A stretch of DNA of 64,000 nt from Nisaea sp. GTDB taxonomy: Bacteria; Pseudomonadota; Alphaproteobacteria; Thalassobaculales; Thalassobaculaceae. The stretch lies in assembly GCF_017640745.1 (NCBI RefSeq), contig NZ_JAEPQA010000027.1, forward strand, positions 1 through 64,000, read 5' to 3'. The notes below the pieces were generated by a model. The model ran no database searches and had not been told where the DNA came from. It was given only the letters and a program-made list of their open reading frames with translations. This document shows, piece after piece, positions 48,414 to 63,435 of this stretch. Positions within the stretch are counted from its first letter, which is position 1, and the number at the start of each line of letters is the position of its first letter. The position numbers and the translations under genes are program-made.

Positions 48414-48599
48414 AGTCTCTCTGTCCCTGTTCGCTCGGCATATCGCGCCGGTTTTCCCGGCTGCTCTTTGACCGAATTAGATTCTCAAGGAATTGTATAT
48501 GAAAGGCGCCATGTCATAAGAGTCTTTCAAAATTTTGTTGAATGTCCGCGCGCGCGTTCTCCGGAACAATGGCGCCGGTACCGACGATGAGGTGGGATG

Positions 48600-50015
48600 A
48601 TGGGGGACTATCCGCGCGACCTCGAAGGCTACGGCCCAAACGCGCCCGATGCGGACTGGCCGGGCGGCGCCCGGGTCGCGGTCCAGTTCGTACTGAACTA
48701 CGAGGAAGGCGGGGAGAACAACCTGCTGCACGGGGACGCGGCCTCCGAGGCCTTTCTCTCGGAAATCGTCGGCGCGGCGGCCTGGCCCCGACAGCGCCAT
48801 TGGAACATGGAATCGATCTACGAATACGGCGCCCGCGCCGGCTTCTGGCGGCTGCACCGGATGTTCACCGACGCCGGGATCCCGCTCACCGTCTACGGCG
48901 TCGCCACGGCGCTCGCCCGCAGCCCCTCCCAGGTAAAGGCGATGAAACAGGCCGGTTGGGAAATCGCCTCGCACGGCCTGAAATGGATCGAGCACAAGGA
49001 CATGACCGAGGCGGAGGAGCTGGCGCAGATCGTCGAGGCCATCCGGCTCCATACCGAGGTCACCGGCGAGGCGCCGCGCGGCTGGTATACCGGCCGCTGC
49101 TCGATGAACACGGTCGAGCTGGTCGCCGCACGCGGGGACTTCGACTATATCTCCGACAGCTATGCCGACGACCTGCCCTACTGGATGGAAGCGGGTGAGC
49201 GCGACCAGCTGATCATCCCCTATACGCTCGACGCCAACGACATGCGCTTCGCGACGCCGCAGGGTTTCAATACCGGCGAGCAGTTCTTCCAGTATCTGAA
49301 GGACAGCTTCGATGCGCTCTACGATGAGGGCAAGGAAGGGCGCCCGGCGATGATGTCCGTCGGACTGCATTGCCGGCTGGCCGGACGCCCTGGCCGGGCG
49401 GCGGGCCTGAAGCGCTTCCTCGACTATGCGAAAGCCAAGGACAAGGTCTGGTTCGCACGCCGGATCGAGATCGCCGAGCACTGGAAGGCGAAACACCCGC
49501 CGAAGCGCTTCGAGCGGCCAAGCCGGATGGACAAGGCGAGTTTCGTCGCCCGCTTTGGTGGCATCTATGAGAACTCGCCCTGGATCGCCGAGGCGGCCTT
49601 CGATCTCGAACGCGGCCCCGCGCACGACACCGCGACCGGACTGCATTCCGCCCTCACCCGGATCTTCCGCTCGGCAAGCCCGGAGCAGCGGCTGGCCGTT
49701 CTCAATGCGCATCCGGACCTCGCGGGCAAGCTCGCGCAGGCCAAGCGCCTGACCGAGAACTCAACCGCCGAACAGGCAAGCGCCGGGCTCGACGCACTGA
49801 CCGACGAGGAGCGCGCGAGCTTCGAGGACCTCAACCGGCGCTATGTGGAGAAGCACGGCTTCCCCTTCATCATCGCCGTGCGCGACAACACGAAGCCCAG
49901 CATCCTCGCGGCCTTCAAGAGGCGCATCGAAAACGACCGCGAGACTGAAATGGCCGAGGCCTGTCGACAGGTCGAACGCATCACCGAACTCCGACTGAAG
50001 GATCTCCTGCCATGA
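48600..50015 (+). CDS. puuE: Allantoinase PuuE fused to OHCU decarboxylase UraD
   Basis: A 471-residue fusion of two purine enzymes. Residues 1 to about 305 are PuuE, a polysaccharide-deacetylase-like allantoinase (VAVQFVLNYEEGGENNLLHG, WEIASHGLKWIEHKDMTEAE, YTGRCSMNTVELVA). Residues from about 310 to 471 are OHCU decarboxylase (FGGIYENSPWIAEAAFD, NAHPDLAGKLA with its catalytic His, KHGFPFIIAV). UraD makes S-allantoin, which PuuE opens to allantoate, so the fusion joins consecutive steps in reverse order. Tandem ATGs occur at 48597 and 48600 after GAGGTGGG. It is coupled to the next gene by ATGA. Confidence 0.94.
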   Translation: MGDYPRDLEGYGPNAPDADWPGGARVAVQFVLNYEEGGENNLLHGDAASEAFLSEIVGAAAWPRQRHWNMESIYEYGARAGFWRLHRMFTDAGIPLTVYGVATALARSPSQVKAMKQAGWEIASHGLKWIEHKDMTEAEELAQIVEAIRLHTEVTGEAPRGWYTGRCSMNTVELVAARGDFDYISDSYADDLPYWMEAGERDQLIIPYTLDANDMRFATPQGFNTGEQFFQYLKDSFDALYDEGKEGRPAMMSVGLHCRLAGRPGRAAGLKRFLDYAKAKDKVWFARRIEIAEHWKAKHPPKRFERPSRMDKASFVARFGGIYENSPWIAEAAFDLERGPAHDTATGLHSALTRIFRSASPEQRLAVLNAHPDLAGKLAQAKRLTENSTAEQASAGLDALTDEERASFEDLNRRYVEKHGFPFIIAVRDNTKPSILAAFKRRIENDRETEMAEACRQVERITELRLKDLLP

Positions 50016-50860
50016 GTGGCGCCGACCGTTCCTACTACGCAATTCCCGGCGGTCTTCCGGGGCAGACGCAGCTGATGACAGGCCGGGCCGTCTTCACCGA
50101 GGCCTATGCTGTGATTCCGAAGGGCGTGATGACGGACATCGTCGCCAGCCTCTTCCCGTTCTGGGAGAACACCCGCGGCTGGATCATCGCCCGCCCGCTC
50201 TCCGGTTTCGCCGAGACCTTCTCGCATTACGTCATGGAGGTCTCCCCCGGCGGCGGCTCGACGAAGCCGGAACCGGAAGCGGGCGCCGAGGGTGCGCTCT
50301 TCGTCGTCTCCGGCGCGATCACCGTCACAGTTGGCGGCAAGGAAAAGGTTCTGACACCTGGCGGTTTTGCCTACCTGCCGCCATCAAGCGGCTGGACGCT
50401 AAGAAACGATGGCGCAAAACCCGCGCAGTTCCACTGGATCCGGAAGATGTACGAGAAGGTCGAGGGCATCGACGCGCCCGAGCCTGTCTTCGCCCGCGAC
50501 CAGGACATCGCGCCCGCCGCGATGCCGGATACCGAGGGACGGTGGGCGACCACGCGCTTCGTCGACCCGTCGGATCTTCGCCACGACATGCACATTACCG
50601 TCGTGACCTTCCTGCCGGGAGGTACCATTCCCTTCGAGGAGACGCATGTGATGGAGCACGGGCTCTACGTGCTCGAGGGCAAGGGCGTCTACAAGCTGAA
50701 CCGGGACTGGGTCGAGGTCGAGGCGGGCGACTACATGTGGCTGCGCGCCTTCTGCCCGCAGGCCTGCTACGCCGCCGGGCCGGGACCGTTCCGCTACCTG
50801 CTCTACAAGGACATGCACCGCCATCCGCGGCTGACCGGTGTCGGAGCCTTCGGGCGATGA
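50012..50860 (+). CDS. allE: (S)-ureidoglycine aminohydrolase (bicupin)
   Basis: A 282-residue bicupin. It releases ammonia from S-ureidoglycine to give S-ureidoglycolate. The N-terminal cupin has FSHYVMEVSPGGGSTKPEP, and the C-terminal, metal-binding cupin has GGTIPFEETHVMEHGLYVLE with the Glu/His ligands, then GDYMWLRAFCPQACYAAGP. Length and layout match the ureidoglycine aminohydrolase family. It sits between puuE-uraD and allA with 4-base overlaps on both sides. The upstream enzyme that makes ureidoglycine (allantoate amidohydrolase) is not in the window. Confidence 0.93.
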   Translation: MSGADRSYYAIPGGLPGQTQLMTGRAVFTEAYAVIPKGVMTDIVASLFPFWENTRGWIIARPLSGFAETFSHYVMEVSPGGGSTKPEPEAGAEGALFVVSGAITVTVGGKEKVLTPGGFAYLPPSSGWTLRNDGAKPAQFHWIRKMYEKVEGIDAPEPVFARDQDIAPAAMPDTEGRWATTRFVDPSDLRHDMHITVVTFLPGGTIPFEETHVMEHGLYVLEGKGVYKLNRDWVEVEAGDYMWLRAFCPQACYAAGPGPFRYLLYKDMHRHPRLTGVGAFGR

Positions 50861-51348
50861 GCCGGACGATCACCGCACAGCCGCTGACGGCGGAGGCGTT
50901 CGCCCCCTACGGCGAGGTCCTGGAGGCCGCCGGCGCGCCGGATTACATGATCAATGCCGGGCTTTGCGGGCGGTATCACGATCGCGCACGGCCGGAAACG
51001 GACGCGGAGGGCAAGGTCACGCTCAGCATCGGCCGAAGCGATGCGGTTTCCCTGCCCCTTAGCCTGAAAATGATGGAACGGCATCCGGACGGCAGCCAGG
51101 CCTTCGTGCCGATGAACGGGACACGCTTCCTTGTCATCGTCGCCGCAGACGAAAACGGTGCGCCGGGCAAACCGGAAGCCTTCCTCACGGACGGGGCCCA
51201 GGGCATTCAGTACAAGCGGAACTGCTGGCACGGCGTGCTCGCGCCGCTTTCCGGCCCGGCGGATTTCCTGATCGTCGACAGGATCGGACCCGGCGCCAAT
51301 CTTGAAGAACACCACCTCCCGGAGCCCTACACAATTGTCGCCGGCTAG
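50857..51348 (+). CDS. allA: Ureidoglycolate lyase
   Basis: A 163-residue AllA-family lyase that splits ureidoglycolate to glyoxylate and urea. It shows TAEAFAPYGEVLEA, the ligand region MMERHPDGSQAFVPMNGTRF and the conserved WHGVLAPL ... FLIVDRIGPGAN near the C terminus. The ATG overlaps the previous stop (ATGA). It is the last gene of the rightward ureide unit, which ends at a hairpin about 55 bases downstream. Glyoxylate would enter central metabolism; no urease is seen here. Confidence 0.95.
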   Translation: MSRTITAQPLTAEAFAPYGEVLEAAGAPDYMINAGLCGRYHDRARPETDAEGKVTLSIGRSDAVSLPLSLKMMERHPDGSQAFVPMNGTRFLVIVAADENGAPGKPEAFLTDGAQGIQYKRNCWHGVLAPLSGPADFLIVDRIGPGANLEEHHLPEPYTIVAG

Positions 51349-54642: not shown

Positions 54643-55449
54643 ATGTCTGTCCATTTCTGGGGTCACTTGACGACGGAGGATGTCGCGGCGCTAAAGCCGT
54701 CGCGTACGCTGGCCCTTTTGCCCGTCGGCGCGATAGAGCAGCACGGCCCGCACCTTCCCTTGGCGACCGACATCCTGATCACCGAAGCGGTGCTCTCCTC
54801 CGCGGCCGAGCGTGTGGCGGACGACCTGACACTCCTGATCCTGCCGTCCCAGGCCATCGGTCTCAGCCCCGAGCATATGAGTTTTGCCGGCACCCTCACA
54901 CAAGCCGCGGAAACCCTCATCGCCTCCTGGACAGAAATCGGCCGTTCCGTCGCCGCGGCGGGCGTGCGCAAGCTGATCCTTCTCAACAGCCATGGCGGCC
55001 AGCCGCAGATCGTCGACCTCGTCGCGCAACGCCTGCGCAGCGAAGCCGGGATGCTGGCGGTCCGGGCGAACACTTTCCGGTTCGACCTGCCAGACGGACT
55101 GATCTCGGACGACGAACAGAAAACCGGCCTGCATGGGGGCCAGATCGAGACCGCCCTGATGCTGGCGATCGCGCCGGAGCTGGTGCGGAAGGACAAGATC
55201 GCGGATTTTCCCAATTCGGCCGCAACCCGCACCGCCACATCGAAACGGCTCGGACTCTCGGGGGCCGGCGGTTTCGCCTGGAACGCGGAGGATCTCAACC
55301 CGTCCGGCGCAACCGGTGCGGCGAGCCGCGCGACAGCGGACCAGGGGAGCGCCCTGCTCGCCGCCTACGGGCAACAGCTCGCGGACCTGATCGAGGATGT
55401 CGCGGACTGGCCGTTGAGTGGCGGTGCGCCTTTCGGCGAACAAAGATGA
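54643..55449 (+). CDS. Creatininase-family amidohydrolase (ArfB-like role possible)
   Basis: A 268-residue creatininase-family metalloenzyme. Metal ligands are visible in LPVGAIEQHGPHLPLATDIL (Glu/His/Asp), in LLNSHGGQPQIVDL and in GLHGGQIETALML. The family includes creatininase, the mycofactocin peptidase MftE and the archaeal ArfB deformylase, which removes formate from the GTP-derived formylaminopyrimidine before riboflavin and F420 synthesis. The next gene, coupled by ATGA, encodes a RibD-type pyrimidine reductase, so a deformylase-like step is the most interesting reading. Only the family is certain. Confidence 0.88.
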   Translation: MSVHFWGHLTTEDVAALKPSRTLALLPVGAIEQHGPHLPLATDILITEAVLSSAAERVADDLTLLILPSQAIGLSPEHMSFAGTLTQAAETLIASWTEIGRSVAAAGVRKLILLNSHGGQPQIVDLVAQRLRSEAGMLAVRANTFRFDLPDGLISDDEQKTGLHGGQIETALMLAIAPELVRKDKIADFPNSAATRTATSKRLGLSGAGGFAWNAEDLNPSGATGAASRATADQGSALLAAYGQQLADLIEDVADWPLSGGAPFGEQR

Positions 55450-56192
55450 GCGGCATCTGGAGGGAGATCCTCGCCGGGCTCGGAAAGAGCATCCCGGAAG
55501 ATACCGGGGTGGACGCGCAATACGTCCCCTGGGAGCTGTATCGCGACCTCGCCGCGGCCTGCGCGGAGCGACCGACCGTGATCGCCCAGATCGGACAGAG
55601 CCTCGACGGCCGCATCGCGACCGTGAGCGGTCATTCGCATTACGTGAACGGACCCGAGAGCCTCGATCACCTGCACCGTCTCCGCGCCATCGCCGATGCC
55701 GTCGTGGTCGGCGCGACGACCGCGGTACTCGACAATCCCCGCCTGACCACCCGCCGGGTACCCGGCCCGAACGCGGTCCGCGTGGTGATCGACACGCAGG
55801 GCAGAGTGCCGGCAGGCCATGCCCTGCTGACCGAACCGGATGCGGAAACCCTCCTCGTCTCCGGCACGTCCCGCAGCGATCTCCCGGCACATTGCGGCAT
55901 GCTGGACGCCACCGGCCCCAACGGCCGCGTGGATCCTCGTCTCCTGCTCGCGGCACTTCGCGGGCGCGGCCTCTGCACCATCCTGATCGAGGGCGGCGGG
56001 CTGACGATTTCCCGTTTCCTTTCGGAGAAGCTGATCGACCGGCTGCAGGTCTCGGTCGCGCCGTTGATCATCGGCTCGGGCCGCCCGGGACTTGTCCTGC
56101 CGGAAATCGAGAAACTCGATGCGGCACTCCGCTTCGAGGCGCGGACCTACCCGCTCGGCAAGGATACGCTGTTCGACTGCCGCCTCAGCTGA
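55446..56192 (+). CDS. RibD C-terminal-domain reductase
   Basis: A 248-residue protein of the RibD_C/dihydrofolate-reductase-like family, without the deaminase half of RibD. RPTVIAQIGQSLDGRIATVS is the typical substrate-binding start (about residue 40). SHYVNGPESLDHLHRLRAIA, ADAVVVGATTAVLDNPRLTT and ILIEGGGLTISRFLSEKLID complete the NADPH-binding core. Family members reduce the ribosyl chain of diaminopyrimidine phosphates or reduce pterins. Its first 40 residues are not part of the usual domain. It overlaps the creatininase gene by 4 bases and the convergent methyltransferase gene by 8 bases. Confidence 0.9.
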   Translation: MSGIWREILAGLGKSIPEDTGVDAQYVPWELYRDLAAACAERPTVIAQIGQSLDGRIATVSGHSHYVNGPESLDHLHRLRAIADAVVVGATTAVLDNPRLTTRRVPGPNAVRVVIDTQGRVPAGHALLTEPDAETLLVSGTSRSDLPAHCGMLDATGPNGRVDPRLLLAALRGRGLCTILIEGGGLTISRFLSEKLIDRLQVSVAPLIIGSGRPGLVLPEIEKLDAALRFEARTYPLGKDTLFDCRLS

Positions 56193-56985
56193 GCGGCACA
56201 GCGAACAGATCCCGGTGGCCGACATAGATCCGGGTTTCGGGGCGGGCGAGCAGTGCCGCGCCCCAGGTCGCGATTTCCTCGCGGTCGAGGGGCGCGATCT
56301 CGCCCGCGGCAGACACCCAGCCCTCGACCAGATCGCGCGCCCCCGGATCGCCCGCCGTCAGGCTCCAGTCGCTCGCGCCCTCATCGACCCGGTAACCGCG
56401 CCGCGTAAGGCCTTCGACCAGGGCCGGATGCGCGTCCGGACCGAGCGCCGGTCCGAAGCCCTTGTCGCCATGCTGATGATCGTTCATCAGCGCCTCGAGG
56501 TTTTCCGCCTCCTCGTGATCGCCTTCGACATCGATCCGCCCGTCATAGGTCAGCACCGCGAGCAAGGCACAGCCGCGCGATGCGACGGCATCGAGGAAGC
56601 GATCAAGCCATTCCGCCGAAACAAGATCGAAGAGCGCCGAAGCAGTAACCAGATCCACATCTTCCAGCAGCGGTGCGATATCCGATGTAGCGAGATCGAG
56701 GCTCTCCACCGCGATCCGGTCGTCAGTCTTCAGAGAGGCATGGCCAACGGCACGGTCCAGCAACGCAGCGTCGCTGTCCACCAAACGCCAGTCGCACGGC
56801 GTTTTCAGCAACGGTGCCAGATGGCGCTGGTTGTTTCCCGTCCCGGCGCCGAGATCGAGGATCCGGAGCGGCGCCGGCCGTCTCCCGGCCCATTGCACCA
56901 GTGCGCCCTCGACTTCCGGGCTTCGCGCCGCCCGATCCCATACCGCGCGCGCCGTCAGCCAATCTGCCGAAAACCCGCCGCTCAT
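56185..56985 (-). CDS. Class I SAM-dependent methyltransferase
   Basis: A 266-residue methyltransferase. Motif I is RILDLGAGTGNNQRHL (about residues 42-57), followed by the acidic motif WRLVDSDAALLDRA and a motif resembling LDLATSDIAPLLEDVDLV. The substrate cannot be read from sequence. It is the last gene of the leftward operon (dehydrogenase, PTPS-like, glycosyltransferase, this gene). Its start overlaps the stop of the glycosyltransferase (ATGA), and it is convergent with the RibD-like gene. Confidence 0.88.
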   Translation of the reverse strand: MSGGFSADWLTARAVWDRAARSPEVEGALVQWAGRRPAPLRILDLGAGTGNNQRHLAPLLKTPCDWRLVDSDAALLDRAVGHASLKTDDRIAVESLDLATSDIAPLLEDVDLVTASALFDLVSAEWLDRFLDAVASRGCALLAVLTYDGRIDVEGDHEEAENLEALMNDHQHGDKGFGPALGPDAHPALVEGLTRRGYRVDEGASDWSLTAGDPGARDLVEGWVSAAGEIAPLDREEIATWGAALLARPETRIYVGHRDLFAVPLS

Positions 56986-58064
56986 TGCAAAGTCACCCCG
57001 TCGACAGCACGCTGAAAGGCCGTTTGCGCCCGCGCCCAGTCGGACAGCCCTGCCGCCGCGTCCCGGCTCCGCGCCGCGCGTTGCAGGCGGGCACCGTCAT
57101 CCATCAGAAGGGTGCGGAGCGTGCGCCCGAGCGCGTTGCTGTCGCCAGCGGGCACCAGTTCGGCCGCCGCCCGGACCGCCTCGGCGACGGCCCCCTCTTC
57201 GGTCGTCACCACCGGAAGCCCGAAGGCGACCGCGTCCGCAAGCGCCATGCCGAACCCCTCGTGATAGGTGGCGGAGAGAAAGAGGCCGGCCCCGCGGTGC
57301 AACGCCACCAGCTTTTCTTCGACGAGCTCGCCATGGAAGGTTACACGCTCCAGGATTCCCAGCTCGCCCGCAAGCGTCTTCAGCGCCGCACCATGGTCCG
57401 GGTCGCGCGGCGCGCCGACGATGTCGAGGCGCCAGTCGAGGTCGCGGCAGGACGCGAGCGCCCTGAGGGCGATGTCGTGCCCCTTGCGCTTCGTCAGGGT
57501 CGCCACGGAAAGGATGCGGACCGGCGTACTCCCGCCGCCGGACCAGCGTTCACGCCGGGCCCATTCGGCGATACCCGGTTCGACCACGCGGACCGCGGAG
57601 GGATTCACCCCGAAATCGCGCAGCCTCAGGGCGGTCCGGGCGCTGGAGACGACAATCCGCGCGACCTCTGCCAGCACCGCCTTCTCGGCGGCGAAAAACG
57701 CTTCCTTCTCGCGGTCTCCAAGACCGGTCTCGTCGGCCAGCGGGTGGTGGATCATCGCCACCACGTCGAGCCGGGATGCGTGCTGGGCAACCGCCTGACC
57801 GAGCGCGGTCAGGGCCAGACCGTCGATGACGCAGAGCGCCCGGTCCGGAAGTCCGGCCAACACCGCCGCACCGGCCGCAACGTCGTAAGGCGCCGCACGC
57901 GGGAAGTCGCCCGAAATTTCATGGACGGCACCCAGCCGGCCGGCTGCCTTCAATCCCTCGACCATCTGCCGGTCATAGATGAAGCCGCCTGTCAGCGTGC
58001 CGAGCGGCCCTGGAACGATGAAATGGACCGGGAGGCTGGAATCCTGCAGACGTGCGGGGGTCAC
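56982..58064 (-). CDS. Glycosyltransferase, GT4-like
   Basis: A 360-residue GT-B glycosyltransferase. It starts [20 protein letters not shown], as do several small-molecule GT4 enzymes. The donor domain has [20 protein letters not shown], and the E-x7-E signature is in [20 protein letters not shown]. It would attach a sugar to a small molecule or lipid. The GTG start at 58064 overlaps the PTPS-like stop (GTGA). Within this operon the acceptor is most likely the product of the pterin/pyrimidine-type enzymes. Confidence 0.87.
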
Positions 58065-58459
58065 AATGTCCCCTCGTAGGAGGCCCAGGCAATGTGGGAC
58101 TCGTGAAGCGTAACCTTCATGCCGGCGAGCCCGAGGGCCGTCTCGCCGAGCTTTCCGGCGCGGATCGAGGCCGCCATGGCATCGAAGATGTGCCGGGCGA
58201 GGAACTCGGTCGTGGTGTTCTCGCCCTTGAATTCCGGCAGTTCGTCGAGATTGCGGTAGGCGAGCGGCGCCAGGACCGCCTTCAGTTCTTCCGAGGCGGC
58301 GCCGATATCGATCACGAGATTGTCCGCATCCAGCTCCGCGCGGCGGAACTCGACATCGACCACATAGGTCGCCCCGTGCAGGCGCTGCGCCGGCCCGAAG
58401 GTCGGGGAGTTGAAGCTGTGCGCGATCATCACGTGGTCGCGGACGGTAAGTGCGTACAT
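58061..58459 (-). CDS. PTPS/QueD-family paralogue lacking canonical active-site residues
   Basis: A 132-residue protein of the 6-pyruvoyltetrahydropterin synthase/QueD fold. [20 protein letters not shown] and the C-terminal [12 protein letters not shown] align with the family core (HGH motif and the pterin-binding Glu). However, the motif reads HGA where the family has HGH, so only His14 and His28 remain of the three zinc ligands. The catalytic Cys that precedes the motif by four residues is Ala24. It therefore should not be called queD or a standard PTPS. It is the second gene of the leftward operon, 12 bases after the dehydrogenase. Confidence 0.82.
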
Positions 58460-58471
58460 GAATGGCTCCGG

Positions 58472-59446
58472 TCAATCAGGATAGCGGATACGGTGGCAGA
58501 GAGTCTCGGGCGCGCCGGATGTAAGCTTGGCCATGATCTTCGGCAAGTCCTCGAACGGGCTTTCGCCGGTGATCAGCACATCGAGCGCAGGGTCGTCGAG
58601 CAGACCGATGGCTTCGGCAAGACGCTCCCGGTGCCTCGCACCCTGGCGCCGCGACGGGGCGACCGCGCCGACCTGGGAGGCCTGGATGGTGAGGCGCTGG
58701 GAATGAAAGGCGCCGCCGAGCGGCAGCGAGACCTCGCGGTCGCCATACCAGCTGAGTTCGATGATCGTCGCCTCGAAAGCGGCGAGGTCGAGCGCCCGGC
58801 GCAGCCCCGCCTCTGTCGCGCTCGCATGGAACAGCAGGCTGAATTTCTCGGGATGCCCGCCGGCTCCGGCATAGCGAAGACCGAGCGCCTCGCAGACCGC
58901 CGCCCGGCTTTCCACCGGATCGAAGACCCACACCTCTTCACCCCAGAAGCGACGGGCGAGATAGCCGGTGAGAAGCCCGACCATGCCGCCGCCGATGACG
59001 CAGAGCTCCTTTGAGCGCGCCGCCTCTGCATCCCAGACCGCATTGAGCGCGGTTTCCATATTCGCGGCCAGCACCGCCCGCTCCGGCGACACTTTCTTCG
59101 GCAGCGGGATCGCCGCGTCGGTCGGGACGACATAGCGGGTCTGGTGCGGGTAGAGCACAAAGACCGGCGTGCCCTTGGCCAGCCCGTCGCCCCCCGCGAC
59201 CCGCCCGACCGAGGCATAGCCGTATTTCACCGGACCCGGGAAACGTCCCTCCTGGAAAGGACAGGCCATCCGGTCCCATTCCGAGCGCGGCACGCCGCCG
59301 CGGAAGACGAGGCTCTCCGTCCCCTTGCTGACCGCGGAAAAAAGCGTCTCGACCAGAAGCTCGCCATCCGCCGGCTCCCGGAGCGTTTCCTCGCGGATTT
59401 CCCCCTGCCCGTTACCGTGCGACCAAAAGGCACTCGCAACGCGCAT
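58472..59446 (-). CDS. Medium-chain dehydrogenase/reductase, BchC-like, zinc motif absent
   Basis: A 324-residue protein of the medium-chain alcohol dehydrogenase superfamily. The region that normally holds the catalytic zinc Cys (GVCGTD-type) reads SAVSKGTESLVFRGGVP. SKGTE is typical of BchC-like and related zinc-free members. The Rossmann domain starts ELCVIGGGMVGLLTGYLARR, followed by EVWVFDPVESR. It would oxidise or reduce a hydroxyl or carbonyl group. I chose the ATG at 59446, just before RVASAFWSHGN; ATGs at 59470, 59479 and 59500 are also in frame. It is first in the operon. Confidence 0.83.
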   Translation of the reverse strand: MRVASAFWSHGNGQGEIREETLREPADGELLVETLFSAVSKGTESLVFRGGVPRSEWDRMACPFQEGRFPGPVKYGYASVGRVAGGDGLAKGTPVFVLYPHQTRYVVPTDAAIPLPKKVSPERAVLAANMETALNAVWDAEAARSKELCVIGGGMVGLLTGYLARRFWGEEVWVFDPVESRAAVCEALGLRYAGAGGHPEKFSLLFHASATEAGLRRALDLAAFEATIIELSWYGDREVSLPLGGAFHSQRLTIQASQVGAVAPSRRQGARHRERLAEAIGLLDDPALDVLITGESPFEDLPKIMAKLTSGAPETLCHRIRYPD

Positions 59447-59519: not shown

Positions 59520-60098
59520 ATGGAACTCCCCTCGCGCGCAGCAAAAACTATCGTGAGCGTCGTCGCCGTTCTGGTGATGCTCGCGGCCGGCGCGGCGCCG
59601 AGGGCGGAACCCGCGCGATACGAGGTCGATCCGGATCATCTGTCGATTACCTTTCGGACCAGCCATCTCGGTCTGGCCGACAGCCGCGGCATGTTCCTGA
59701 TCGGCGCGGGCAGCTTCAGCTTCGACGAATCCGCCCCCGCGATCCGGGATATCCGTTTCACCGTCGCGCCGGCCGGCGCCTTCACGCCTCCTCAGACCGG
59801 GAGCGCGGACATCGCCGGAGCCGGGAGCAGAATCACTTTCGTCGGCAAACAGAGCCGGCAGACCGGCCCCCGCACCGGGACCGTCAGCGGTGATCTTACC
59901 CTGAACGGAATTACCCGGCCGGCAACGCTGGACCTCACCTGGATCGACAACCAGGACTTCCCCTTCCGCTCCAAGCACCACGCGGTGGCGCTCTCGGTCG
60001 AGACGCGGATCAGCGACCGCACTTTCGGCGGCACCGGGGCGCCCGGCGGCGAGATGGAGCTGCAGATCGATTTCGAAGCCAAGCGGGTCGAGGGATAG
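59520..60098 (+). CDS. Periplasmic YceI-family protein
   Basis: A 192-residue exported lipocalin-like protein. The signal peptide (about residues 1-28) is followed by ARYEVDPDHLSITFRTSHLG, GDLTLNGITRPATLDLTW and AVALSVETRISDRTFG, all YceI hallmarks. YceI proteins bind long isoprenoid or lipid-like ligands, such as polyprenyl chains, in a beta barrel. GGAGG precedes the ATG at 59520. It is divergent from the dehydrogenase gene and convergent with the glutathione transferase gene. Confidence 0.92.
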   Translation: MELPSRAAKTIVSVVAVLVMLAAGAAPRAEPARYEVDPDHLSITFRTSHLGLADSRGMFLIGAGSFSFDESAPAIRDIRFTVAPAGAFTPPQTGSADIAGAGSRITFVGKQSRQTGPRTGTVSGDLTLNGITRPATLDLTWIDNQDFPFRSKHHAVALSVETRISDRTFGGTGAPGGEMELQIDFEAKRVEG

Positions 60099-60979: not shown

Positions 60980-63283
60980 TTATTCGGCCGCGGCGAGCCG
61001 GCCCTCGTTGGCAACGGCCCAGATCTTCTCCTGGGTCGCCGGCATGTCGATATTCACCACGCCGAGCGCGTCGCAGACGGCGCTGATCGCCGCCGGCGGA
61101 GCGCCGATGGCGCCAGCCTCGCCCGAGCCCTTGATGCCGAGCGGGTTGGTCGTGCACCAGACATTGTGCGTGGTGAAGTCGATCATCGGCACCTGGTCCG
61201 CGCGCGGCAGGTTGTAGTCCATGTAGGAGCCGGTCATCAGCTGGCCGCTCTCCTCGTCATAGACCGCATGCTCGTAGAGCGCCTGGCCGAGGCCCTGGCC
61301 GACGCCGCCATGCACCTGGCCCGCCAGCATGTTCGGATTGATCACCGAGCCGAAATCGTCGACCACGGTGTAGCGCTGGATCTCGACGATGCCGGTATCC
61401 GGATCGATCTCGAGCTCGCAGACATGGCAGCCGTTCGGGAAGGTCGCGGCTTCCGGCACCCGGTGATGCGTGGTGTCGAGGTTCTCGTCACCCTCGGCCT
61501 GCCGGCTCACATCGAACAGCGACATGGTCTTGTCGGTGCCGGCGACGGTGAAGGTGCCGTCGGCGAACTCGATGTCCTCGACCGCCGCTTCCATAACGCG
61601 GGCTGCGACCTTCTTGCCCTTCTCGACGATCTCGCGGCCGCCGAGCAGCACCGCGACGCCGCCCACCGGCAGCGCGCGCGAGCCACCCGTCAGGCCCGGA
61701 GGCGTGCGGTCGGTATCGCCCTGGATGATCTTGATCCGCTCGCCGTCGATGCCGAGCACGTCGCCCAGCACCTGGGCATAGGCGGTCTCGTGCCCCTGCC
61801 CGTTCGACTGGTTGCCGATATAGATCTCGATCTTGTCGTCCTCGGTGAAGCGGATGTCCGCGGTCTCCGGATTGCCGCCACCGCATTTCTCGATGTAGTA
61901 GCCGAGCCCGATGCCGCGCAGCCTGCCGCGCTTTTCCGACTCCGCCTTGCGCGCCGGGAAGCCGTCCCAGTCCGCCCGCTTCATGCATTTTTCCATGACG
62001 GTCTGGAACTCGCCGGTGTCGTAGACGTTCCCGAGCGCGGTGCTGTAGGGCATCTGCTCCGGCTTGATGTAGTTCCGCCGACGGATCTCGTCGCGGGTAA
62101 GCCCTGTCTCGGCCGCGCAATTGTCCATCACCCGCTCGATCAGGTAGGCCGCTTCCGGACGGCCGGCGCCGCGATAGGCGTCAGTCGGCGTGGTGTTTGT
62201 GACGACACCCTTCACGTTCACATAGATGCTCGGGATGTCGTAGACGCCGGACAGCATGTGGGTGCCGGCCTCGGTCGGGATGAAGGCCGCGAAATTCGAC
62301 AGGTAACCGCCGAGATTGGCGAAGGTCTCGACCTTCATGGCGATGATCTTGCCGTTCTCGTCGAGAGCGGCCTTCACATAACTGATATTGTCCCGGCCCT
62401 GGGTGTCGGACATGAAGGCTTCCGAGCGGTCCGGCGTGTATTTCACCGTCCGCTTCAGCCGCCGCGAGGCCCAGGCGATCAGGCACTGTTCGGGATAGAG
62501 GAAGATCTTCATCCCAAAACCGCCGCCGACATCGGTGGTGATGCAGCGCAGCTTCGACTTGTCGATCTTCAGCACCGTCTCCGCCAGATGAGGGTGGATG
62601 AAGGACGGGCCCTGGGTCGAGCTGTAGAGCGTCGTGCGGTCGGTCTCCGCGTCATAGAGGCCGATGGCGCCGCGCGGCTCCATGGAATTAACGATGATGC
62701 GGTTGTTGACCACGCGGGTCTCGACCACCCGCGCCGCGCGGGTGAAGGCGGCGTCGTTGATCTCAAGATCGCCCTTGTGCCAGTCGAAGCAGATATTGTG
62801 CGGGATGTGATCGTAGAGCTGGGCCGCGCCCGGCTTGGTCGCCGCCTCTGCATCGGTCGCCGCCGCGAGCGGCTCGTATTCGATGTCGATCAGCTCGGCG
62901 GCATCGCGCGCCGCCGAAAGCGTCTCCGCGATCACCATGGCGACCGGGGTACCGACATGGCGCACCCTGTCGCCCTCAAGGATCGGCCGCGGGGTATCGG
63001 CCCGGGGGCTGCCGTCCTTGTTCGGCGCCGGCGCGAGCGAGGGCAGATCGCCGAGCCCGTCTTCTTTCACGTGTTTGTTGGTCAGCACCGCGACCACGCC
63101 CGGCACCGCCTCGGCGTCGGACGTCTCGACGGATTTGATCTTCGCATGCGCATAGGGCGAGCGGAGAATATAGGCACGCAGCGCGCCGTCCGGCGCCACA
63201 TCGTCCGTATAGTTCCCCTGGCCGGTCAGAAGGCGCTGGTCCTCGACACGTTTGATCGCCTGACCGATACCGAATTTAACCAT
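60980..63283 (-). CDS. Form-II CoxL-like molybdenum hydroxylase large subunit, orphan
   Basis: A 767-residue Mo-cofactor subunit of the xanthine oxidase/CO dehydrogenase family. The active-site loop reads DAYRGAGRPEAAYLIERVMD, the AYRGAGR signature of form-II CoxL proteins and not the AYRCSFR of true CO dehydrogenase. GGGFGMKIFLYPEQ, NQSNGQGHETAYAQ and the catalytic Glu loop IKGSGEAGAIGAPPAAI are also present. No FAD or [2Fe-2S] partner gene lies beside it, so the partners are elsewhere or shared with 16543-17899. GGAGG precedes the ATG at 63283. The substrate is probably an aldehyde or heterocycle, not CO. Confidence 0.9.
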   Translation of the reverse strand: MVKFGIGQAIKRVEDQRLLTGQGNYTDDVAPDGALRAYILRSPYAHAKIKSVETSDAEAVPGVVAVLTNKHVKEDGLGDLPSLAPAPNKDGSPRADTPRPILEGDRVRHVGTPVAMVIAETLSAARDAAELIDIEYEPLAAATDAEAATKPGAAQLYDHIPHNICFDWHKGDLEINDAAFTRAARVVETRVVNNRIIVNSMEPRGAIGLYDAETDRTTLYSSTQGPSFIHPHLAETVLKIDKSKLRCITTDVGGGFGMKIFLYPEQCLIAWASRRLKRTVKYTPDRSEAFMSDTQGRDNISYVKAALDENGKIIAMKVETFANLGGYLSNFAAFIPTEAGTHMLSGVYDIPSIYVNVKGVVTNTTPTDAYRGAGRPEAAYLIERVMDNCAAETGLTRDEIRRRNYIKPEQMPYSTALGNVYDTGEFQTVMEKCMKRADWDGFPARKAESEKRGRLRGIGLGYYIEKCGGGNPETADIRFTEDDKIEIYIGNQSNGQGHETAYAQVLGDVLGIDGERIKIIQGDTDRTPPGLTGGSRALPVGGVAVLLGGREIVEKGKKVAARVMEAAVEDIEFADGTFTVAGTDKTMSLFDVSRQAEGDENLDTTHHRVPEAATFPNGCHVCELEIDPDTGIVEIQRYTVVDDFGSVINPNMLAGQVHGGVGQGLGQALYEHAVYDEESGQLMTGSYMDYNLPRADQVPMIDFTTHNVWCTTNPLGIKGSGEAGAIGAPPAAISAVCDALGVVNIDMPATQEKIWAVANEGRLAAAE

Positions 63284-63435
63284 CAAAAGCCTCCATGTCG
63301 GATCGCAGCCTGATTGCCGCGCCGTTAATCTCTCGGGCGGGATGTTAGGAGGGGAGAAGTCTGGCGCTCAAGCATGAATTGGAGTAGCAAGACCTCTCTT
63401 CACGTACCCGTCACAGAGATAAGGGCTCAACGCCC

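Follow-up and report, generated by a model that had tools for sequence, protein, structure and literature searches.

The 64,000-nucleotide stretch analysed here (hereafter the window; Nisaea sp., NCBI RefSeq assembly GCF_017640745.1, contig NZ_JAEPQA010000027.1, positions 1 to 64,000) contains, at positions 54,643 to 59,446, six genes in two convergent groups, whose counterparts are clustered in bacteria of several phyla. Examination of the open reading frames and of the sequence confirmed all six as real, correctly placed and tightly coupled. They are listed below together with a divergent neighbour, a possible accessory member:

54643..55449, + strand: CRN, a creatininase-family amidohydrolase, proposed formamidopyrimidine deformylase (Pfam PF02633 Creatininase, 6.8e-68)
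55446..56192, + strand: RED, a reductase of the RibD C-terminal type, deaminase domain absent (Pfam RibD_C, 2.9e-37, the sole domain found)
56185..56985, - strand: MT, a class I S-adenosylmethionine-dependent methyltransferase (Pfam Methyltransf_25, 2.8e-6, a weak match)
56982..58064, - strand: GT, a GT4 glycosyltransferase with a GTG start (Pfam Glycos_transf_1, 1.3e-25)
58061..58459, - strand: PTPS-like, a PTPS-fold protein of the SCO6650 type, with HGAT replacing HGH (Pfam PTPS, 2.6e-24)
58472..59446, - strand: DH, a medium-chain dehydrogenase, annotated elsewhere as "zinc-binding alcohol dehydrogenase" (assigned from homologues, a PDB profile and a structural model)
59520..60095, + strand: a YceI-like protein, divergent from DH (Pfam YceI, 1.7e-14)

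CRN and RED overlap by four bases (ATGA), the convergent RED and MT share eight bases at their 3' ends (56185-56192), and the MT/GT and GT/PTPS-like junctions are ATGA and GTGA overlaps, respectively. A sequence-only reading of this DNA had described two convergent, fully coupled operons; its overlaps and coordinates are right, but "fully" is too strong, as DH ends 12 bases upstream of the PTPS-like gene.

Relatives of the cluster were gathered in two samples. A scan of a named genome collection with a profile of the PTPS-like protein gave at least 582 confirmed stretches, the best 80 of which (the named loci) span Pseudomonadota, Actinomycetota, Acidobacteriota and Gemmatimonadota; this sample is biased toward proteins most like the window PTPS, rich in Halomonadaceae and Actinomycetota, and mostly gammaproteobacterial or actinobacterial. 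Among 240 alphaproteobacterial genomes, 30, the window's own included, have a PTPS-like gene (E <= 1e-15), and 29 loci were fetched from the other genomes. Gene content was scored per locus by tblastn (E <= 1e-4), and the names of neighbouring genes come from seven annotated plasmid regions; since several loci are truncated by contig ends, absences are upper bounds. All 80 named loci carry the PTPS-like gene and DH, followed by GT (78), MT (76), a CDP-alcohol phosphatidyltransferase (73), a flippase-like gene (59), RED (57), GTP cyclohydrolase II (GCHII; 46), CRN (40), an FkbM methyltransferase (21), YceI (20) and a sulfatase-like gene (17). The corresponding counts for the 29 alphaproteobacterial loci are PTPS-like 29, DH 28, GT 27, MT 27, RED 22, CDP-alcohol transferase 10, GCHII 9 (one of them, in L047, a RibBA lacking the zinc motif), YceI 7, cytochrome b561 6 and CRN 5. 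The core order DH-PTPS-GT-MT, colinear on one strand, is kept in 75 of the 80 named loci and 26 of the 29 alphaproteobacterial ones. Co-conservation of the six genes, as proposed in the sequence-only reading, was borne out: all six occur together in 31 named and five alphaproteobacterial loci, and 28 of the named loci unite them with both GCHII and the CDP-alcohol transferase. Because the core and the six-gene set are co-conserved, we reject the idea of chance neighbours.

A near-complete alphaproteobacterial set is found in a Kiloniellales metagenome-assembled genome (L102 7029-15671), comprising the transferase, YceI, FkbM, DH, PTPS, GT, MT, RED, GCHII and a creatininase. In the annotated plasmid region H7 of Streptomyces anthocyanicus (L146 9001-9426), the PTPS-like gene stands without the other cluster genes, beside MEKHLA and cupin genes. 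On a Palleronia plasmid (L148 4113-11887) the cluster is rearranged and accompanied by genes for a PfkB-type kinase and a protein of the inositol-monophosphatase family, possibly representing steps on a polyol phosphate.

The PTPS-like protein is the most distinctive member of the core. Its closest solved relative is SCO6650 (PDB 3d7j, 3.9e-52 over 131 residues), the next PDB match being at only 5.3e-5. Invariant among 12 aligned proteins are H14, H28, A30, T84-E85 and E120; His14 and His28 of the zinc site are thus kept, but the third histidine, that of the HGH motif, is replaced by Ala, and 112 of 116 loci show the resulting HGAT motif. SCO6650 reportedly contains no zinc and lacks PTPS activity, yet is able to bind pterin, according to work from the Bandarian laboratory. 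The sequence-only reading had tied this PTPS-fold protein to pterins; the fold is as stated, but with one zinc histidine gone PTPS or QueD chemistry cannot be assumed. No second PTPS-family gene was found in the window's genome (97% complete), hence no QueD for queuosine synthesis.

DH has no Pfam match, and its NCBIfam match to BchC (3.3e-14) is weak and far under that model's cut-off. In the PDB, its profile matches polyol-type dehydrogenases (L-iditol, galactitol-1-phosphate, xylitol, sorbitol), and its predicted structure (mean predicted local distance difference test, pLDDT, 91) matches the fold of many medium-chain dehydrogenases, with TarJ at ranks 6 and 7. These matches are compatible with, and not specific for, a ribityl phosphate substrate. 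The invariant columns of 31 DH proteins include no cysteine, so that DH does not show the conserved catalytic zinc ligands, a cysteine among them, of zinc-dependent alcohol dehydrogenases.

RED finds its best PDB sequence matches in 2,5-diamino-6-ribosylaminopyrimidinone 5'-phosphate reductases (6p8c, 1.3e-29; 2azn, 2.8e-24), enzymes that reduce a 2-amino ribosyl substrate to the ribityl form. It has no deaminase domain and thus lacks the two-domain architecture of riboflavin RibD. In CRN, the residues E32, H34, D43, H117 and E169, presumably the metal ligands by comparison with creatininase, are invariant in 20 cluster members, and the AlphaFold model (pLDDT 87.6) matches creatininase structures. 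CRN remains below every NCBIfam cut-off (creatininase, 90.1 against 235 bits; MftE, 118.5 against 172; ArfB, 19.9 against 180), and a function in creatinine degradation or mycofactocin was rejected on the first two of these scores. No second creatininase-family gene was found in the window's genome. The CRN tree separates the actinobacterial proteins as a distinct clade (100/100); the window CRN and the other proteobacterial proteins share a group of moderate support with unlinked alphaproteobacterial genes.

The sequence-only reading had expected a GTP cyclohydrolase of the FolE, RibA or GCH-III type to start the pathway from outside the window. Such a gene does co-occur with the cluster, in the form of the 46 GCHIIs of the named loci, though none lies beside the window cluster; GCHI and GCHIII types are not needed as an explanation. 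In the Streptomyces GCHII SCO6655, a Met at the switch position is said by the same laboratory to leave the formyl group on, releasing formamidopyrimidine. Among 23 actinobacterial GCHII loci (22 named and one plasmid), the residue at this position (Tyr105 in E. coli numbering, assigned by motif) is Met in nine, His in six and Tyr in eight, and CRN is present in all 15 loci with Met or His and in none of the eight with Tyr, as would be expected of a formamidopyrimidine deformylase. A further position, residue 53, adjacent to the first Cys of the zinc site, emerged from a comparison of alignment columns made after the fact and has the standing of a hypothesis, not of a test planned beforehand: all 25 CRN-bearing loci of Proteobacteria and Gemmatimonadota have Ala, Ser or Cys there, and the nine other loci without CRN have Glu (4) or Ala/Ser (5). 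When both changes are counted, CRN accompanies 40 of 45 altered GCHIIs and none of 12 unaltered ones (Fisher 8.7e-9, a value too small because the sequences are related). In the GCHII tree, the 25 CRN-linked proteobacterial and Gemmatimonadota enzymes all fall outside a supported group (99/96) that contains the RibA of the window's genome together with 22 of the 24 further GCHIIs from Alphaproteobacteria. PMC9478397 describes a precedent, the creatininase-family BrbF, which deformylates formamidopyrimidine in the riboflavin synthesis of Sinorhizobium and Brucella. To judge from the sequences, a deformylase role would be well motivated for CRN in Actinomycetota and plausible in the proteobacterial loci with a dedicated GCHII.

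Lying outside the window, the CDP-alcohol phosphatidyltransferase, the flippase-like gene and, in some loci, the YceI, FkbM and cytochrome b561 genes had escaped the sequence-only reading. The aligned transferases share DG-x2-AR-x8-G-x3-D-x3-D, which we take to be the motif of CDP-alcohol phosphatidyltransferases, and the protein scores far below the cut-offs of the PgsA, PssA and PIP-synthase models, indicating a distinct type. A profile of this cluster type (E <= 1e-20) finds the transferase in 17 of the 240 alphaproteobacterial genomes, 16 of which also have the PTPS-like gene; in the remaining one (G127), an assembly of 74% completeness, RED adjoins the transferase. The transferase lies in the cluster in ten of these 16 genomes and elsewhere in six, and six of the seven unlinked copies have YceI, FkbM, RED, a GCHII or a sulfatase-like gene nearby. 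A control of 75 other alphaproteobacterial loci (345 kb), alphaproteobacterial only whereas the named loci are mostly gammaproteobacterial or actinobacterial, contained YceI twice, both times near such clusters, and three matches to the transferase, two near such clusters and one a PgsA chosen for that family. The transferase, flippase-like, YceI, FkbM and cytochrome b561 genes of the relatives point to a product probably linked to the membrane or exported.

The window's genome is poorer. Its two members of the transferase family are PgsA-like, beside molybdopterin-type genes, and PssA-like (by eye), and the cluster-type profile finds none there, so that we rejected the idea that the transferase is kept elsewhere in this genome. 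Its two flippase-family genes are near polysaccharide-type genes (by eye), with no special link to the cluster. With neither a cluster-type transferase nor a dedicated cyclohydrolase, the window's version of the pathway is reduced. In G107, a genome of the same genus, no YceI gene was found in the cluster locus (L034), which makes the membership of the window's YceI uncertain.

Taken together, we consider it likely (probability roughly 0.6) that in several phyla this gene set serves to make, from GTP, a pterin-like molecule bearing sugar and methyl groups, and that the window holds a reduced version of it. GCHII would open GTP to the formamidopyrimidine or diaminopyrimidine ribosyl phosphate, and CRN would take off the formyl group where GCHII retains it. 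RED would then convert the ribosyl to the ribityl 5'-phosphate, with the 2-amino group kept because there is no deaminase domain. DH and the zinc-less PTPS-fold protein may act on this ribityl-diaminopyrimidine, most simply by oxidation of a ribityl hydroxyl and closure of the pterin ring with the free 5-amine; a 2'-ketone on the ribityl chain beside that amine would lead to a dihydropterin, and GTP cyclohydrolase I would not be required. GT and MT would decorate the product, and in most relatives the CDP-alcohol transferase and flippase-like protein may place it on a phospholipid-type anchor and move it across the membrane. The housekeeping RibA would have to supply the first step in the window's genome. 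The six genes are preceded in the window by allantoin- or ureide-degradation-like genes (48597-51348) and followed by a xanthine-dehydrogenase-type large subunit (60980-63286), both recognized by eye from the translations, so that purine catabolism lies on both flanks of a GTP-derived pathway.

As to the form of the product, we can only tentatively suggest a lipid-anchored pterin or ribityl-pyrimidine glycolipid. RED would make the ribityl 5'-phosphate and the CDP-alcohol transferase would accept it, as PgsA accepts glycerol 3-phosphate and PIP synthase inositol phosphate; DH and the zinc-less PTPS would cyclise the head group, which would then be glycosylated, methylated and flipped outward. 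There it could serve YceI and cytochrome b561 as a membrane cofactor with redox activity, or as a signal.

Several observations weigh against the proposed pathway or parts of it. All reactions after the opening of the GTP ring and their order are predictions from gene content, as are closure of a pterin ring and attachment to a lipid. The Met/His GCHIIs constitute one clade and the actinobacterial creatininases likewise, so that the contrast of 15 to 8 loci rests on few events and its Fisher p of 2e-6 overstates it. RED is absent from 10 of the 15 Met/His loci, which weakens the mechanism unless a RibD encoded elsewhere serves. The other 34 GCHII loci, the proteobacterial ones among them, all have Tyr at the 105 position, and on these grounds we rejected the notion that a Tyr105 change lies behind every cluster creatininase. 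The residue-53 change is only a correlate: Glu is found in 19, Ser in four and Ala in one of 24 readable background alphaproteobacterial GCHIIs (5/24 without Glu), a sample with one further, unreadable locus and including L257, the cluster-linked gene of L037; several other GCHIIs of cluster-bearing genomes also lack Glu there, and five loci with an altered GCHII have no CRN in the locus. Close homologues of the window CRN are unlinked in nine alphaproteobacterial genomes (11 genes: L172, L174-L176, L178-L182, L197 and L198, a subset of them in the tree, grouping near the window's), so that this pathway is not the only setting of the subfamily. Moreover, the window has CRN, yet the sole zinc-site GCHII of its genome (RibA, L002) is unaltered; the ArfB-like deformylation suggested in the sequence-only reading thus agrees with the CRN/GCHII pattern of the relatives, from which the window's genome departs, and is no more than a possibility for the window CRN. 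According to PMC9478397, two distant BrbF homologues did not complement riboflavin auxotrophy.

The transferase, finally, was not found in the genome of the window, in G107 or in 12 other alphaproteobacterial genomes bearing the PTPS-like gene, and is therefore not essential to the core. These 14 genomes with a core and no transferase speak for a soluble, exported, glycosylated and methylated pterin, the transferase and flippase serving an unrelated, co-regulated lipid, and PMC13259868 mentions both cyanobacterial pterin glycosides with unclear roles and a periplasmic tetrahydropterin signalling in Agrobacterium whose export route is not known. Such a separation seems doubtful to us, as the transferase is inside 73 of the 80 named loci and is nearly confined to genomes with the PTPS-like gene, even where it is unlinked. 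A duplicated or alternative riboflavin front end, made of GCHII, a BrbF-like CRN and RED among unrelated neighbours, would agree with the families of GCHII and RibD_C and with the BrbF precedent. It is unlikely, given that these three genes repeatedly accompany the four-gene core and that the window's genome has, besides RibA, a riboflavin-type locus elsewhere (L003, contig C11), with riboflavin-synthase-like and NusB-like genes (both by eye) and a RibBA-type protein (1462-2652) with no zinc cysteine motif in its GCHII domain; a simple riboflavin operon was rejected because RED has no deaminase and the core accompanies it. The genome also encodes GTP cyclohydrolase I, as expected for folate.

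A chance grouping around, for instance, a creatinine-degradation or mycofactocin fragment could be read into the CRN scores on the MftE and creatininase models and the unlinked members of its subfamily; with both scores under their cut-offs and the conservation described above, which already refutes it for the core, we regard it as very improbable. It is hardly credible that the genes form an operon for queuosine, tetrahydrobiopterin or folate built around a genuine QueD or PTPS. The QueD model of NCBIfam does match the window protein (9.7e-11), homologues of which are publicly annotated as 6-carboxytetrahydropterin synthase, but the score is 41.9 bits against a cut-off of 89.25, the zinc motif is altered, SCO6650 is reportedly inactive as a PTPS, and none of the six genes matches a FolE, QueE or QueC model; a canonical QueD/PTPS was accordingly rejected.

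If the proposed pathway is correct, a pathway that awaits its product is present in the genomes of hundreds of species (no fewer than 582 confirmed stretches), enzymes labelled as queuosine, riboflavin, creatinine or alcohol-dehydrogenase proteins are misannotated in them, and the orphan structure SCO6650 gains a role. It would also link GTP-derived pyrimidines and pterins to membrane lipids, and bear on the route of pterins to the bacterial envelope, the export of which is called unknown in PMC13259868; the lipid-linked form would be more than a variant of GTP-derived pyrimidine or pterin biosynthesis. Each family is known by itself, and two members from Streptomyces have been studied, but the gene set was not described in the open-access literature searched, and the pathway and its product are, as far as searched, undescribed. 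SCO6655 is named in a modelling study (PMC2853524) and SCO6652 in a transcriptome study (PMC3610822).

Among the closest known systems is the SCO6650/SCO6655 region of Streptomyces coelicolor; the solved structure of SCO6650 (3d7j) is much closer in sequence to the window PTPS-like protein than any other. Relatives in Streptomyces have the same core and a GCHII with Met at the switch position, whereas the window has no dedicated GCHII. Compared with subfamilies I-VI of PTPS (COG0720), the window protein shares the fold but not the HGH motif that defines PTPS-I, II and III in a 2016 review (PMC5041015), where PTPS-V is listed as of unclear function. CRN resembles BrbF and ArfB as a creatininase-family enzyme proposed to act after GTP ring opening (PMC9478397), and differs in its score far below the ArfB cut-off and in the lack of riboflavin context; the BrbF sequence itself did not enter the comparison. 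RED, with RibD_C and no deaminase, is like the archaeal and fungal type of 2,5-diamino-6-ribosylaminopyrimidinone 5'-phosphate reductase, but reaches 97.9 bits against the archaeal equivalog cut-off of 186.45. The pterin glycosides of cyanobacteria and Chlorobium, made by a pteridine glycosyltransferase, would resemble the proposed product in being glycosylated pterins (PMC5683033 and PMC13259868); they start from tetrahydrobiopterin, whereas the pathway proposed here involves GCHII, an atypical PTPS and, in most loci, a CDP-alcohol transferase and a flippase.

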